From: a virus
Direction: 5' to 3' (one strand)
DNA: 35,234 bases
IMG/VR virus record: IMGVR_UViG_3300032271_000366
Location: 1 to 35,234 of that record
Made by a program: the position numbers and the translations under genes. The notes beneath the pieces were generated by a model. The model worked only from the letters and a program-made list of their open reading frames with translations, was not told the origin of the DNA and made no database searches. Positions 15,727 to 21,070 of the stretch are shown in pieces (the stretch's first letter is position 1; each line of letters begins with the position of its first letter).

Positions 15727-16121
15727 AGCAAGTAAATTTATTTGGGGGAGAATTTGACCCAAGCAAAAATGAACAAAAATATTCAACCAAGATTGAAGCC
15801 CCTATTTATGAGCCTAAAAACGTAAAGCCGCATTTAATAGAACTTTGCGACAAAAGCAAAACTCATAGATTAATGAGGGAAATTGATATGTCTAATTTGC
15901 CTATTGAAGAAAAGAACTTTTTAATGGATGCAGCAAGAAGGCACAATGTTTTTAACTATGAGAAGGTTGCTGATTACTATGCTCACGCTACACCCGAAAT
16001 GCAACAATTAATGGAAAGAAGCGGATTGGTAATTATAGACTTTGAAAAGGCTGTTGAATATGGATATATTAAATTATGTGATGAAATAAAAACTCAATAC
16101 CTTACAGAATATGGAGAATAA
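15723..16121 (+). CDS. Conserved partner of the glycosyltransferase, 132 aa
   Basis: The N-terminus 'QVNLFGGEFDPSKNE' is followed by 'PIYEPKNVKPHLIELCDKSKT', 'AARRHNVFNYEKVADYYAHATPEMQQLMERSGLVIIDF' (in parts) and 'VEYGYIKL'. I recall this same sequence pattern directly upstream of the type of glycosyltransferase encoded next, in phages and prophages, though I cannot check that here. The helical 'RHNVFNY...DYYAHA' segment is the likely core. The gene overlaps the transferase by 11 nt. It may present the DNA substrate or be part of a complex. No catalytic motif is visible. Confidence 0.65.
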   Translation: MKQVNLFGGEFDPSKNEQKYSTKIEAPIYEPKNVKPHLIELCDKSKTHRLMREIDMSNLPIEEKNFLMDAARRHNVFNYEKVADYYAHATPEMQQLMERSGLVIIDFEKAVEYGYIKLCDEIKTQYLTEYGE

Positions 16122-16962
16122 AGATTTTGCAATATTTATTATGGTGTATGGAAGACCTGATAAGAACCTAACATACAATACTCTACTAAAATGCGGATAT
16201 ACGGGCAAAGTGTATTTTGTAGGCGATGATACCGATAGTGAAATTGATGGCTACAAAAAACTGTATGGTGATGATTTATTAATTTTTGATAAAAAAGAAG
16301 TTGCTAAAAAATACGATAGCGGTGATAATAGCGGAGATTTAAGAAGCACAATGTTTGCCGCAAATACAATTTTTGATTTAGCTGAACAAAAAGGAATTGA
16401 ATATTTCTATATAATGTGTGATGATTATTACGAGTTTGACTATATGTTTAAAGACGAAATAAAGGGGATGAAATTATGTAGGAATATTGATAAAGTATTT
16501 GACTTGACCATTAATTTTTTTAAGACTACAAAAGCATTATCAATAGCATTTGCCCAAACAGGTGATTTTATTGGTGGAATAGATAATGGTAAAGGTGTTT
16601 ACAGATTTAGTAAAAGGAAAGCTATGAATAGTTTTTTATGTAGCACAAAAAGAAGATTTGAATTTTTGGGAAGAATGAATGAAGATGTAACGACCTATAT
16701 TAATTTAGGAACAAAAGGAGAATTATTTTTAACTATTCCAGTTTTTGCTGTAAACCAAAAAGATACTCAGCAAGTTAAAAAAGGACTTACTGAAATGTAT
16801 GTTGATAATGGAACTTATATCAAGTCTATGTTTTCAGTTATTTACAATCCTTCTTGTGTTAAAGCATCAATAATGAATGCTTCGCACAAAAGAATACATC
16901 ATTCTATAAAATGGATAAATACAACCCCTATGATAATTAGTGAAAAGTATAAAAAGTATTAG
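16111..16962 (+). CDS. TET-associated-type glycosyltransferase (TAGT-like)
   Basis: The 283-residue protein has a GT-A type nucleotide-sugar fold. It starts 'FAIFIMVYGRPDKNLTYNTLLKCGYTGKVYFVGDD', here described in sections, and has a DxD-like metal motif 'MCDDYYEF' (about residues 102-109), 'SIAFAQTGDFIGG', 'KRKAMNSFLCSTKRRFEFLGRMNEDV' in parts and 'DNGTYIKSMFSVIYNPSCVK'. This set is what I associate with TAGT proteins, which add sugars to modified DNA bases. No TET/JBP oxygenase or hydroxymethylase is present in this genome, so the acceptor is uncertain. It is more AT-rich than the structural genes, which hints at transfer. Confidence 0.7.
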   Translation: MENKDFAIFIMVYGRPDKNLTYNTLLKCGYTGKVYFVGDDTDSEIDGYKKLYGDDLLIFDKKEVAKKYDSGDNSGDLRSTMFAANTIFDLAEQKGIEYFYIMCDDYYEFDYMFKDEIKGMKLCRNIDKVFDLTINFFKTTKALSIAFAQTGDFIGGIDNGKGVYRFSKRKAMNSFLCSTKRRFEFLGRMNEDVTTYINLGTKGELFLTIPVFAVNQKDTQQVKKGLTEMYVDNGTYIKSMFSVIYNPSCVKASIMNASHKRIHHSIKWINTTPMIISEKYKKY

Positions 16963-16964
16963 TT

Positions 16965-17246
16965 ATGATTCGCAAGGTAAGCAAGAAAAGAGCGCAGCAG
17001 AATAGGGACTACTCAAAAGTAAGGTTGGAATACTTGGAAGCGCACCCCGTATGTGAGGCGAATTTACAGGAATGTTTAAAAGTGGCAGACGAGATTCACC
17101 ATAAAAAAGGCAGGACAAATGATTTACTTTGCAATAGCGAATACTTTTTAGCAGTATGTTGGAATTGCCATGTTTGGATTGAATTAAACCCAAAGGAGGC
17201 AAAAGAATTAGGATTTAGTTTTAGTAGGATTCATAAAAACTTGTAA
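16965..17246 (+). CDS. HNH endonuclease next to terminase
   Basis: The 93-residue protein has the HNH form: 'HPVCEANL' supplies a Cys, 'DEIHHKKGRTNDLLCN' the His-His pair and Asn, and 'FLAVCWNCHVWIEL' the CxxC-H segment. Free-standing HNH proteins encoded beside the small terminase are common in tailed phages; in HK97-like phages they stimulate terminase cleavage, while others act as homing enzymes. It starts 2 nt after the glycosyltransferase and ends 9 nt before TerS, supporting a packaging role. It is unrelated at sequence level to the second HNH gene nested in terL. Confidence 0.85.
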   Translation: MIRKVSKKRAQQNRDYSKVRLEYLEAHPVCEANLQECLKVADEIHHKKGRTNDLLCNSEYFLAVCWNCHVWIELNPKEAKELGFSFSRIHKNL

Positions 17247-17255
17247 CTTTGTAGG

Positions 17256-17741
17256 ATGGCAAAAGGTGCAAAGTTTGACAAGCAAAAGACGCTTACTCTC
17301 ATGGTTAGTTTACTCCGTGAAGGTGGAACACGTGGCGGAATTTTGTCAAAGGTTGGCAAAACATGTCAATGTAGCGTAAGGACACTAGACAGGATATTAA
17401 AGGAAGCCACACAGATACACATGCAGGAATCAGCACAGCTTCAAAAAGCCGAACTTGAAGGATTGACCGAGGCGAGAAAAAAAGAGGCAATGGAGGGTGT
17501 TTTAAGCAGTTTGGAGCGCAAAAAGATTTTGAGCGAGATTGCAAGGGGCAAAGTTTTAGTAAAAAAGCCTGTCGTAACTAAATTCGGGGTGGAAGAAATT
17601 GACTGTGAACCCGATCACGGGGATAGGAAAGCAGCTATTGCCGAACTAAATAAGATGGACGGGGATTATGCGCCGGTTAAGTCAAAGCAAGAAATCACAA
17701 TAGACAAGCCCGTCATCATAGACTGGAATGGAACAGCTTAA
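17256..17741 (+). CDS. terS: Terminase small subunit
   Basis: The 161-residue protein starts with a helix-turn-helix ('KTLTLMVSLLREGGTRGGILSKVGKTCQCSVRTLDRILKEA' in outline, residues about 9-50), continues with a charged helical region suited to oligomer formation, and ends with 'KSKQEITIDKPVIIDW', the C-terminal strand found in many TerS proteins and thought to contact TerL. It recognises the packaging start on phage DNA. The end overlaps terL by 14 nt, as usual for this pair. Confidence 0.85.
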   Translation: MAKGAKFDKQKTLTLMVSLLREGGTRGGILSKVGKTCQCSVRTLDRILKEATQIHMQESAQLQKAELEGLTEARKKEAMEGVLSSLERKKILSEIARGKVLVKKPVVTKFGVEEIDCEPDHGDRKAAIAELNKMDGDYAPVKSKQEITIDKPVIIDWNGTA

Positions 17742-19986
17742 ATTCACCCCAACACCAAAGCAGCGGGAGGCACACCGGTTACTAAAAGAAAACAATATCG
17801 TGCTTTATGGTGGTGCTATTCGTGGGGCAAAGTCTTATTGGGGATGCCTCGAGATAGTTACCTTCTGCTTTCAATATCCTAACAGCCGGTGGTTAATGAT
17901 GCGAGAAAGTATGCCAACCTTAAAGCGTACATTATTAAAAACCTTTAACGAGTACTTTTTAGGCAAGGGGCTTCATGCCTACGTCAAGCATTTTAATCAG
18001 CAAACGCAAACAATCACTTGGAACAACGGCAGCGAGATTATATTCATGGCCGAGAGTTACGACACGGATAAAGAGTTAAACCGGTTCCGGGGCTTGGAGA
18101 TAAACGGGGCTTTCGTGGATGAGGTGAATGAGATTAACGAAGAAACCTTTAATAAGATTATCGAGCGTGCAGGTTCGTGGTTTGGTTCGCCCGGCTGCCC
18201 AACAAAGATATTAATGAGTTGTAACCCTAATCAGGGATGGACAAAGGATCGATTTTATGACAGGTGGAAAGCAGGAACCTTGCCCAAAGGCGTGGCCTAC
18301 TTACAGGCACGAATAGAAGATAACCCACATATCCCCCAAGAATACATTGAGAGCCTTAAAATGCTTCCCAAGTATCAGTACAAGGTATTCGTAGAAGGCG
18401 AGTGGGATATAAGCCTAAAAACAGGTGGTGAGTTTTACAAGTGCTTTGAATTGGATAAGCACGTAGGTCATTGCGAATACAATCCTGAATTGCCATTACA
18501 TATCAGTTGGGATGATAACGTCAACCCATACTTACCGGTAGGCATATTTCAGATTGAGGGCAAAGCAGTTCGCATGATTGATGAGATAGCCGGAGTGAAT
18601 CCAAACAACACCATAAAAGCCGTCTGCAATGAAATCAAGCGCAAGTATATGGGGCATAAATCAGGAATGTTCGTTTACGGGGATAGTACAGCTCAAAAGG
18701 ACGATACCAAGATTGAGAAAGGGTATGACTTTTTTAGGCTTGTGATGGAAGAGTTGAGAGAGTTTCTCCCACAGCGCAGGGTGGCTTCATCTAATCCTAG
18801 TGTGGTGGCAAGGGGTATGTGGATTAACACCTTTTTAGAAACGGGAAGGGGCGGTATAACATTTATGATAAATGATTCGTGTAAGAAGGCCATCAATGAT
18901 TTCATCAATCTAAAGGAGGCGGCAGACGGCACGAAAAACAAGGAAATGGATACTATCAATGGGGTTCGCTGTCAGAAAGTAGGACATTACTGTTTTGTAG
19001 GCGAAACAATAGTTACAACGATTTTAGGCGATTTGCCTATATCTCAGGTCATGGAGGGTAATTACGTGCTTACAAGAAACGGTTATAAAAAAGTATTAAA
19101 GGTTCACGATAATGGAGTGCAAAAAGTTAGCACATACAGAATAGGGGATAGGTTAATTACTTGTACGCCCAATCATTATTTTTGGACGGAAGAAAATGGA
19201 TTTAAGGCAATAAAAGAATTGACATATTGGACTACTTTTTGTATCTTGGGCAGAAATAACAAATTATGCAAAAAGAAGTTATTACCTACAATGGCAGAAC
19301 GTTCATCAGATACCCTAATTCAAAAAACAGGAGCGAAAGAGAGTATTATCACGGATGGATTAATAAAGGACGCAGCCGCAAAAAAGAACGATTACACCGG
19401 TATATTTATACTCAAGAGGTTGGGGAGATACCTAAGGGGTATCACATTCATCATGTTGATGGAAATTGCCAAAACAACGCAATTAGCAATTTACAATGCG
19501 TTAAAGGAGGTGAGCATATTAGACAGCACCTATTTAATGCAAGCGATGAACAAAAGGCACATAGAATTGCTATCTTACGAGATATTGCAAGACCAAAAGC
19601 AAGCGAATGGCACGCATCGGAAGTTGGCAGGGCGTGGCATCGAGAGCTTGCTGCAAAAAATAAAGAAACAAATAAGCACACGGGCATATGTGAGGTCTGT
19701 GGTAAGGAATATACTTCAACACATGGCGGTGTTACCAAGTATTGCTCAGGTAAATGCAGAAAAAGAATTGCTGCTAGATGGCTACGGGAAAGACGAAAGG
19801 CGAGTGTATGATTTGTCTATTCAAGACAATCACGAATACATAGCTAATGGCATTTTAGTATCTAACACAGACCTCGTCGATTATCTATTTTGCTTTGCTT
19901 TCGCCCAAGAATATGCGGATTATCAGCGAGGCGGGATAGTAACCAACCCAATGACAGGGAAAAATGTATCAAAACATGGTTATTAG
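17728..19986 (+). CDS. terL: Terminase large subunit interrupted by an intein
   Basis: A 752-residue precursor; removing the intein (residues 422-713) leaves a 460-residue TerL, a normal size. The ATPase has Walker A 'YGGAIRGAKS' (27-36) and Walker B 'AFVDEVNEI' (D131, E132). The nuclease has acidic motifs at 'SWDDN' (D262/D263) and 'VYGDST' (D319), then motif III 'GHY|TDLVDYL', where the bar marks the intein. Without splicing the third metal ligand is separated from the others, so nuclease activity should depend on protein splicing. TerL cuts and pumps DNA into the prohead. The frame stays open through the intein, although an HNH gene uses another frame there. Confidence 0.92.
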   Translation: MEQLKFTPTPKQREAHRLLKENNIVLYGGAIRGAKSYWGCLEIVTFCFQYPNSRWLMMRESMPTLKRTLLKTFNEYFLGKGLHAYVKHFNQQTQTITWNNGSEIIFMAESYDTDKELNRFRGLEINGAFVDEVNEINEETFNKIIERAGSWFGSPGCPTKILMSCNPNQGWTKDRFYDRWKAGTLPKGVAYLQARIEDNPHIPQEYIESLKMLPKYQYKVFVEGEWDISLKTGGEFYKCFELDKHVGHCEYNPELPLHISWDDNVNPYLPVGIFQIEGKAVRMIDEIAGVNPNNTIKAVCNEIKRKYMGHKSGMFVYGDSTAQKDDTKIEKGYDFFRLVMEELREFLPQRRVASSNPSVVARGMWINTFLETGRGGITFMINDSCKKAINDFINLKEAADGTKNKEMDTINGVRCQKVGHYCFVGETIVTTILGDLPISQVMEGNYVLTRNGYKKVLKVHDNGVQKVSTYRIGDRLITCTPNHYFWTEENGFKAIKELTYWTTFCILGRNNKLCKKKLLPTMAERSSDTLIQKTGAKESIITDGLIKDAAAKKNDYTGIFILKRLGRYLRGITFIMLMEIAKTTQLAIYNALKEVSILDSTYLMQAMNKRHIELLSYEILQDQKQANGTHRKLAGRGIESLLQKIKKQISTRAYVRSVVRNILQHMAVLPSIAQVNAEKELLLDGYGKDERRVYDLSIQDNHEYIANGILVSNTDLVDYLFCFAFAQEYADYQRGGIVTNPMTGKNVSKHGY
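18991..19866 (+). mobile_element. Intein in TerL nuclease motif III, endonuclease carried out of frame
   Basis: The 292-residue intein begins at Cys422 ('CFVGETIVTT', block A). Block B is 'ITCTPNHYF' with T59 and H62 of the intein, and block F is 'RRVYDLSIQDNHEYIANG' with the usual His. It ends 'ILVSN' before Thr714. The last Asn and the following Thr are the expected splice residues. The penultimate residue is Ser instead of the usual His, a known variation that can slow cleavage. About 92 N-terminal and 25 C-terminal residues make up the splicing domain. The ~180 residues between show no endonuclease motif in this frame; the HNH gene is in the -1 frame. Confidence 0.9.
19266..19811 (+). CDS. 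HNH homing endonuclease nested out of frame inside the intein
   Basis: The 181-residue product is an HNH nuclease: 'RLHRYIYTQEVGEIPKGYHIHH' in two parts leads to 'HHVDGNCQNNAISNLQ' (62-77) with the H-H...N core. A C-terminal zinc-finger-like segment has 'CEVCGKEY' and 'YCSGKCRKR' (C142, C145, C160, C164). It uses the -1 frame relative to terL. A TAA at 19257-19259 in its own frame, 6 nt before the ATG, shows it is not a simple extension of upstream coding and must start on its own or by frameshift after that point. Its stop falls at the start of intein block F. Cleavage of intein-free terL alleles would spread the intein. Confidence 0.88.
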   Translation: MQKEVITYNGRTFIRYPNSKNRSEREYYHGWINKGRSRKKERLHRYIYTQEVGEIPKGYHIHHVDGNCQNNAISNLQCVKGGEHIRQHLFNASDEQKAHRIAILRDIARPKASEWHASEVGRAWHRELAAKNKETNKHTGICEVCGKEYTSTHGGVTKYCSGKCRKRIAARWLRERRKASV

Positions 19987-19993
19987 TTTATAT

Positions 19994-20021
19994 GTTAATT
20001 ATTTGCACCTAGGTTAATTAT
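19994..20021. repeat. Direct repeat upstream of late promoter
   Basis: GTTAATTAT occurs at 19994-20002 and again at 20013-20021, 19 bp apart, close to two helical turns. A related ATATGTTA occurs at both 19990 and 20024. The position about 70-95 bp upstream of the late promoter would suit an activator binding site, but the AT content makes chance repeats common. Confidence 0.35.
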
Positions 20022-20089
20022 CAATATGTTAGTCTAAATTGCTCGTATTGTAAAACAAAACAGATAATGCACTTGTTTGTAAGGAATAA

Positions 20090-20118
20090 TTGGCATTGAA
20101 ATAATTTCCCTATATTTG
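20090..20118 (+). promoter_or_regulatory. Late promoter, Bacteroidota type
   Basis: TTG (20090-20092), an 18-nt spacer and TATATTTG (20111-20118) fit the -33/-7 pattern exactly. It lies in the largest gap of the right half (19987-20134), 17 nt before the ATG of the first structural gene. The rest of the gap is AT-rich and holds only the direct repeat at 19994. Confidence 0.7.
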
Positions 20119-20134
20119 TAGCCAAAGTGCCAAA

Positions 20135-21070
20135 ATGCCTTATCTATTCCGTCAGGACTTCACACGTTTAATTCAAACAGATGCCCTTAATCAGATTATA
20201 GGCAGCAACTTAGATATACTTGATGAGGAGATAAACGCAGCGTGCGAATTGGCTAAGTCAATGCTTAGACCTCGTTTTGATATCAGCACAGAATTTAGAG
20301 AAACATTAGCATGGAATTTAGGGCGAAGTTACTACGCCGGAGAGCGTTACTACTTAGATGCGCCCGTATATCAAGAATCAGATACTTACTACTATTCTAT
20401 GCCCTGTATTCAAGGCACAGATTTTTATATTTGTATTGTAAGCGAAACAACAGGTCCTTTTGTTTCGGGCGATTGGCGCAAGGTAAATAAAAGGTATAAG
20501 GTTTACTATGCTAAGTACCCTCATCCTGTATTCGATTATAAGACTGTTTACAAAATTGGCGATATCGTATGGTGGGCTGATAAGGTTTACACAGCACTAA
20601 AACCAACGGTAGTAGAAAATCATGCAAGCGACCTGCAGTATAGGAACGTGGAAAATATACCGATTGGTAATGTATTCCCGGACGATGCAACTAATGGGCT
20701 AAGTTATTGGGGCGCAGGAACAACCTACTATGTAATGGCTAGTATCGCTCCTGACGAAACCGACTACTATATTTGCGGTGATAACAGGGATTTGAGAATC
20801 AAAACAGCCTGTATAGATATTGCCCTATATGAACTAAATGCACGCCTAGCACCTGCCAACGTCCCAAAAGTAAGAATGGAACGTGCCAAAGGAGCGGAGG
20901 AGGAGAGAATAGCGGGCGATAAGGGTTTTATCTACCCAATTACCTGCGCACTTGGATACTTACAGGCAGTTGAAAGGGGCAATGTAACGCCTTCGCTTCC
21001 GTTATTACAACCCGATCAAGGCATGAGGATTCGTTTTGGTGGCGGGGTAAAAAAAATAAATAGCTACTAA
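20135..21070 (+). CDS. Head-tail connector, Mu gp36/DUF1320-like, with inserted domain
   Basis: The 311-residue protein has a short N-terminal helical part ('NAACELAKSMLRPRFDIS', about 35-52) and a C-terminal part 'IKTACIDIALYELNARLAPANVPKVRMERAKGAEE' in outline, which match the two ends of the DUF1320 connector family. The family is usually about 140 residues, so residues about 55-220 look like an insertion. The insertion is rich in Trp and Tyr, with 'YKIGDIVWWADKVYTAL' and 'DWRKV' motifs similar to small carbohydrate-binding modules. It would sit at the head-tail joint and perhaps display a glycan-binding domain. It is the first gene after the late promoter and overlaps the portal by 1 nt. 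Confidence 0.6.
   Translation: MPYLFRQDFTRLIQTDALNQIIGSNLDILDEEINAACELAKSMLRPRFDISTEFRETLAWNLGRSYYAGERYYLDAPVYQESDTYYYSMPCIQGTDFYICIVSETTGPFVSGDWRKVNKRYKVYYAKYPHPVFDYKTVYKIGDIVWWADKVYTALKPTVVENHASDLQYRNVENIPIGNVFPDDATNGLSYWGAGTTYYVMASIAPDETDYYICGDNRDLRIKTACIDIALYELNARLAPANVPKVRMERAKGAEEERIAGDKGFIYPITCALGYLQAVERGNVTPSLPLLQPDQGMRIRFGGGVKKINSY

Follow-up and report, generated by a model that had tools for sequence, protein, structure and literature searches.

The terminase gene terL of a viral genome very probably carries a mobile class-1 intein with its nuclease encoded in a separate, overlapping gene, an assignment in which splicing, translation and cleavage are all inferred. The stretch studied, referred to here as the window, is positions 1 to 35,234 of IMG/VR record IMGVR_UViG_3300032271_000366. 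The usual account of an intein is of a single protein that does two jobs. In the elements examined here the two jobs appear to be held in two overlapping frames, within terminase genes from a Thermoplasmatales archaeal assembly and from phages and prophages whose hosts differ widely. We propose tentatively, with slightly less than even confidence, that these are undescribed, widespread 'two-frame' terminase inteins that evolved at least twice and whose endonuclease is an independently translated overlapping gene. On that proposal they would be the intein counterpart of the intron-encoded endonuclease ORF, a captured stage in the colonisation of inteins by free-standing endonuclease genes, and would lie a single stop codon short of the fractured-gene, split-intein state. 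The layout opens to test how inteins gain endonucleases, why fusion is unneeded and how split inteins could arise.

Organization of the terL insert

The N-extein of the window terL matched Terminase_3 (3.3e-15) and phrog_979 TerL (3e-31) and was 98% identical to that of two intein-less relatives, L179 and L180. The TerL of these relatives, 460 aa long and 97.6% identical to the window TerL, places the insertion exactly at 18991/19866, within the nuclease active-site motif. L179 and L180 thereby satisfy the definition of an intein as an in-frame insertion that is absent from homologues and has a precise empty site. The class-1 requirement was also met: the window possesses C1, TPNH (TxxH, block B), N292 and T+1. 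At the penultimate position it has Ser in place of His, as do 24 alleles. C1, G13, T28, G31 and H62 of the N-terminal half and E282 and N292 of the C-terminal half were invariant in 54 alleles.

The intein C-terminal model TIGR01443 scored 23.9 against a curated cut-off of 15.6, and PF14890 (Intein_splicing) alone gave a sub-threshold match in the window TerL. AlphaFold modelled the Hint halves, residues 1-80 included, at pLDDT 90-98, as required of a Hint fold, and the TerL-frame spacer between them mostly at low confidence. One long helix was predicted with fair confidence in part of this spacer, so that the peptide may not be entirely inert. The gp41-1 intein was the best match of the family splicing profile (1.2e-18) and was also found by Foldseek with the splicing part (8.5e-7). 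Two other readings of the insert were rejected. A group I intron was ruled out by the lack of any Rfam intron match at 18700-20200 (E up to 1) and by the frame, which is open throughout; a split intein or fractured gene was ruled out since terL runs unbroken through the whole insert and is not two ORFs.

The HNH ORF scored 51.7 bits with HNH_3 (PF13392; cut-off 24.8). H44 was invariant in 54 sequences, in addition to the core and zinc-finger residues (Table 1), and the protein met the definition of an HNH homing endonuclease by catalytic motif and zinc sites. Its model had a mean pLDDT of 96.2. The best PDB match was I-HmuI (1u3e), by profile (7e-4) and by structure (Z 7.8, rmsd 3.0 over 77 residues). 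The HNH stop fell within block F in 101 of 124 alleles, 55 sharing the window's distance from the intein end, and most often arose where the Tyr-Asp codons TATGAT give TGA in the -1 frame.

A preliminary description of the window, made from its sequence alone, had placed an intein with splicing blocks in the terL frame at 18991-19866. It had also placed an HNH ORF with its own ATG in the -1 frame at 19266-19811, preceded by a TAA 6 nt upstream. All of these coordinates proved exact, with TIGR01443 and the Hint fold in agreement on the intein. With the TAA so close to the ATG, there is hardly any space for a fusion translated from upstream. The HHVDGN-type core and Cys-rich finger that it had recognized were supported by the above-threshold PF13392 match and by the residues invariant in 54 sequences. 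Its placement of the HNH stop at block F was upheld by TATGAT, and the 460 residues that it gave for ligated TerL match the length of the L179/L180 protein.

Table 1. Positions of terL, intein and HNH features in the window
Feature	Position	Strand	Details
terL	17728-19986	+	single open frame, 752 codons
Putative upstream co-conversion tract	18951..18990	+	17/40 bases differ from intein-less allele
terL N-extein, 421 aa: ATPase domain and most of nuclease domain	17728..18990	+	
Intein, 292 aa, Cys1 to Asn292, +1 Thr	18991..19866	+	boundaries equal empty site in L179/L180
N-terminal splicing half (blocks A, B; Cys1; TPNH at 19165-19176)	18991..19265	+	
TAA in HNH frame, 6 nt before ATG	19257..19259	+	
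HNH homing-endonuclease gene, 181 aa, ATG to TGA, -1 frame	19266..19811	+	PF13392 6.5e-14
HNH core HIHHVDGNCQNN	19443..19478	+	H62, H63, N71, N75 invariant in 54 sequences
Four-Cys zinc finger: C142, C145, C160, C164	19689..19757	+	all invariant, 54 sequences
C-terminal splicing half (blocks F, G; ends VYDLSIQDNHEYIANGILVSN)	19798..19866	+	TIGR01443
TATGAT: block F Tyr-Asp in TerL frame, TGA HNH stop in -1	19807..19812	+	
terL C-extein, including nuclease motif TDLVDYL, and stop	19867..19986	+	matches L179/L180
Putative downstream co-conversion tract	19867..19887	+	6/21 bases differ vs 3/99 beyond

Distribution of the layout

The same layout was found by tblastn in Tetrasphaera phage TJE1, Acinetobacter phage Highwayman, Rhodobacteraceae phage MD07 and a gut clone, each with intein blocks in the TerL frame and the HNH at -1. 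The annotated phage records that were checked (3/3) list only terL with no HNH inside, indicating that annotation overlooks such nucleases. A scan for close relatives with the window intein alone as query gave no matches; a query made from the intein-frame alignment succeeded. Applied to viral contigs, this alignment retrieved 158 relatives, and 78 of the best 80 carried an HNH at the same -1 offset. An HNH-alignment scan together with a genome scan gave 175 HNH matches in total, 164 of them inside the intein ORF and every one of these at -1. Removal of near-copies left 126 distinct alleles.

Cys1 was present in 126/126 alleles and the terminal Asn in 125/125 scored; the +1 residue was Cys in 119, Ser in 5 and Thr in 1 of 125 alleles. 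By the definition of a canonical large intein, in which the endonuclease is fused in frame, these elements do not qualify: the offset was -1 in all window-type alleles. Genomes carrying the layout included Hymenobacter, Flavobacteriaceae, an isolate of Bacteroides mediterraneensis, Nitrospiraceae, a Clostridium MAG, Woesebacteria and a Thermoplasmatales archaeal MAG. Nine of ten host proteins scanned matched terminase families (Terminase_3, Terminase_6 and GpA types), and L097 matched intein models only. Insertion sites lay mostly at the last acidic motif of the nuclease domain, with some at other TerL motifs. Two TerL ORFs contained two inteins, each with its own out-of-frame HNH (L173:1331-4735, 1134 codons; L153:1009-4242, 1078 codons).

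Selection on the overlapping frames

To estimate how often the TerL frame would be open by chance, we held the HNH protein fixed, re-drew synonymous codons and counted TerL-frame stops. There were no stops in the overlap in any of the 126 alleles, against 3.1 expected per allele. The remaining forward frame had about 20 stops, matching expectation, and the HNH ORF was full-length, with start and stop, across the family. For the window allele alone 3.8 stops were expected and the probability of an open frame was about 0.01; the strong case against chance therefore comes from the 126 alleles and not from the window. With free-standing HNH proteins as query, a less biased control, 47 matches were nested at -1, 4 were nested at +1 and 30 were not nested. 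Each of the 30 unnested relatives showed 2-13 stops in the equivalent frame.

The preliminary description had stated that terL stays open through the overlap, which held, and had put the chance of this near 2 in 10,000, which did not hold: that figure assumed random sequence. It had named two observations that would refute it. Homologues with a broken TerL frame did not occur among the 126 alleles, and a pair of sequencing indels was excluded because the layout recurs across many independent contigs. The layout is neither error nor chance.

Substitution rates in the two frames, a comparison that the preliminary description had proposed, were assessed in 15 independent pairs of related alleles. 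HNH-silent/TerL-changing substitutions occurred at 3.35 times the both-changing rate, and TerL-silent/HNH-changing substitutions at only 1.31 times, identifying the -1 frame as the conserved gene. That the HNH is the conserved protein follows from these codon-position rates, and AlphaFold agrees (pLDDT 96 vs the low-confidence spacer). On this evidence the HNH is under selection in the overlap, and the TerL-frame peptide is inferred to be a spacer kept mainly stop-free, not a conserved domain. The earlier proposal that one stretch of DNA encodes separate splicing and homing proteins is supported by the open TerL frame (0/126 broken) and by selection on the HNH frame; translation, splicing and cleavage are still inferred.

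A second lineage at the +1 offset

An HNH at +1 with a fully open TerL frame was present in L293:2289-2837, L301:1576-2124 and L318:2435-2953, and also in L320, all of which belong to a different TerL intein type. In this lineage 6-11 TerL-frame stops were expected and 0 were present, and the frame was open in 0/1000 re-drawn versions, which shows that selection to keep the host gene open can purge every one of the roughly 6-11 stops expected. Both offsets occur in distinct TerL intein lineages, which indicates that the layout arose at least twice. Further inteins lie in the TerL of L318, towards Walker A, and in that of L293, near Walker B.

Mobility at the terL site

Comparison with the intein-less allele revealed diverged tracts on both sides of the insert (Table 1). 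Divergence in the rest of the N-extein was 69/1223 bases, and the upstream tract was significantly enriched (Fisher p 8e-11). Judged from the bases alone, this two-sided tract is the mark of homing by gene conversion, in which donor flanks are copied in break repair. A homing endonuclease is expected to be mobile with co-converted flanks at an empty allele, and this was met. The proposed search for terL alleles with and without the insert yielded both kinds: 126 nested alleles and the intein-less L179/L180.

L064 and L054 have inteins 87% and HNHs 72% identical, yet their TerLs are 25% identical. L007 and L069 show the reverse: their TerLs are 91% identical, yet their inteins are 49% and their HNHs 36% identical. 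The element is thus inferred to have moved between unrelated TerLs, and its distribution is disjunct. Intein and HNH distances were weakly correlated over all pairs (Spearman 0.14), and we therefore do not claim strict co-evolution of the two parts. Among 80 TerL relatives, 78 were uninterrupted at the site, L187 was cut short and only L190 had the insert.

Expression of the HNH gene

ATG was the start codon in 99/126 HNH ORFs. Strong Shine-Dalgarno-like sites were found at 30% of HNH starts vs 13% of control same-phase ATGs (p 4e-5), and GC dropped 8 points around the HNH start. Shine-Dalgarno strength over the whole set was only marginal (Mann-Whitney p 0.06), and the claim therefore rests on the strong-site tail and the GC dip. 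The window HNH start had no strong Shine-Dalgarno match (-3.5 kcal/mol), so that its translation depends on an assumed Shine-Dalgarno-independent, Bacteroidota-like host. The nearest relatives suggest that the window host belongs to the Bacteroidota. Lack of a strong Shine-Dalgarno site is usual in that phylum.

Alternative explanations

The -1 offset common to all window-type members would be compatible with an intein-N::HNH fusion made through -1 ribosomal frameshifting, with no use of the HNH start. Canonical slippery heptamers, however, were present in only 3/125 alleles, an HNH-frame stop lay no more than 30 nt upstream of the start in 78/125 (6 nt in the window), HNH starts have Shine-Dalgarno-like sites and the 8-point GC dip, and a +1-offset lineage exists; we consider frameshifting very improbable. 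No more credible is a decayed element, in which splicing persists but an indel has put the HNH ORF out of frame and left it defunct. Endonuclease loss is common in inteins, and HNH-less TerL mini-inteins were found here (L066, L175), but the HNH frame is under strong purifying selection, its catalytic and zinc residues are invariant, the ORF is full-length family-wide, and invasion of the window's lineage was recent.

Out-of-frame HNH inserts of the ShiLan type have been reported as non-splicing (PMC11855218), and the insert could likewise stay in TerL as a loop. The complete and strictly conserved class-1 splice residues, the Hint fold at pLDDT 90-98 and the position in the TerL nuclease active-site motif make this highly unlikely. 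A role for the HNH in DNA packaging, as for HK97 gp74, in place of homing has in its favour that the host gene is TerL and that packaging HNH proteins adjoin terminases (discussed in PMC10448857). We judge it improbable: the window has a separate terminase-adjacent HNH-type ORF (16965-17246), which the intein-less L179 retains, most relatives have a TerL that lacks the insert (78/80 uninterrupted), the distribution is disjunct and a co-conversion tract is present.

Proposed mechanism and origin

For a mobile intein with a separately encoded nuclease, we propose that the ribosome translating terL would read straight through the intein and the overlap. The two Hint halves would fold together and excise with a useless spacer of about 180 residues between them, joining the TerL exteins into the inferred 460-aa protein. 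A second ribosome would start inside the intein to produce the 181-aa HNH in the -1 frame, ending at the TGA supplied by the block F codons. The nuclease would then cut intein-less terL at the insertion site, site-specific cleavage being inferred, and repair would copy the intein and short flanks into the cut allele.

Free-standing HNH genes of the same family occur directly after uninvaded terL in L139 and L148. In L105:1665-4139, a TerL with an HNH-less mini-intein has a free-standing HNH of this family directly downstream. These arrangements suggest a route of origin: it is likely, by inference, that a free-standing HNH gene beside terL landed out of frame in the intein, at or near its target site. 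In the HNH tree, which is poorly resolved, nested and free-standing genes are intermingled, implying about 9 changes of state, only 2 of them forced by strong branches.

Comparison with known systems

In ShiLan a phage methylase carries an insert with an HNH out of frame; no splicing domain was found there, and retention of the insert is presumed (Arsenault et al. 2025, PMC11855218). The likeness is close: a ~195 aa HNH gene with zinc fingers in a shifted frame, no stops added to the host gene, and a disjunct distribution from which homing was inferred (PMC11855218). The window type differs in its complete class-1 intein around the HNH, its location in TerL, its more than 100 alleles and its occurrence at both offsets. 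It thus shares with ShiLan the out-of-frame HNH with an open host frame and does not share the lack of a splicing domain.

Previously studied mycobacteriophage TerL inteins contain an in-frame LAGLIDADG endonuclease and are sited in the ATPase domain (Kelley et al. 2016, PMC5050341). The window type resembles them in its TerL host, active-site insertion and splicing blocks flanking a homing endonuclease. In the mycobacteriophage inteins one polypeptide has both activities, whereas the window type has two frames, two proteins and an HNH, and lies mostly in the C-terminal nuclease motif. Dassa et al. 2009 reportedly described fractured genes with a separate endonuclease ORF between the halves of a gp41-1-type split intein. 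The gp41-1 splicing domain is the most similar to that of the window type, in which, by contrast, the host reading frame runs unbroken across the endonuclease gene. I-HmuI, the best match of the HNH protein, is carried by an RNA intron and has no intein.

In collaborative homing, a free-standing endonuclease gene lies beside an intron (discussed in PMC10448857). The free-standing HNH relatives beside uninvaded or mini-intein terL (L139, L148, L105) are similar, but the window-type partner is an intein and the nuclease gene is now inside it. The ShiLan study (PMC11855218) cites Gorbalenya 1998 for overlapping frames and a 2025 bioRxiv preprint (10.1101/2025.01.02.630785) for non-canonical phage inteins. 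Given these two works the general idea may already have been described, and priority is uncertain. The breadth, invariant splice sites, dual-frame selection test, empty-site tract and second offset are results of the present analysis.

Neighbouring and related genes

The window ORF at 16965-17246 is a small HNH-type ORF upstream of the terminase genes with 95.6% DNA identity to the L179/L180 copy, and it may be a packaging-type HNH. Window regions 15727-16963 and 17238-17640 were compared with L179. L179, the near-identical relative, is without the 283-aa ORF present in the window at 16111-16962. Upstream of its terL lies an ORF of 407 aa, DNA-methylase-like, that is absent from the window. 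These differences represent module exchange beside the terminase. An Omnitrophota MAG (L178:2-7121) has adjacent gyrase subunit genes with several inteins, among which HNH and LAGLIDADG domains appear to be in frame; this is the canonical fusion, in contrast to the window type.
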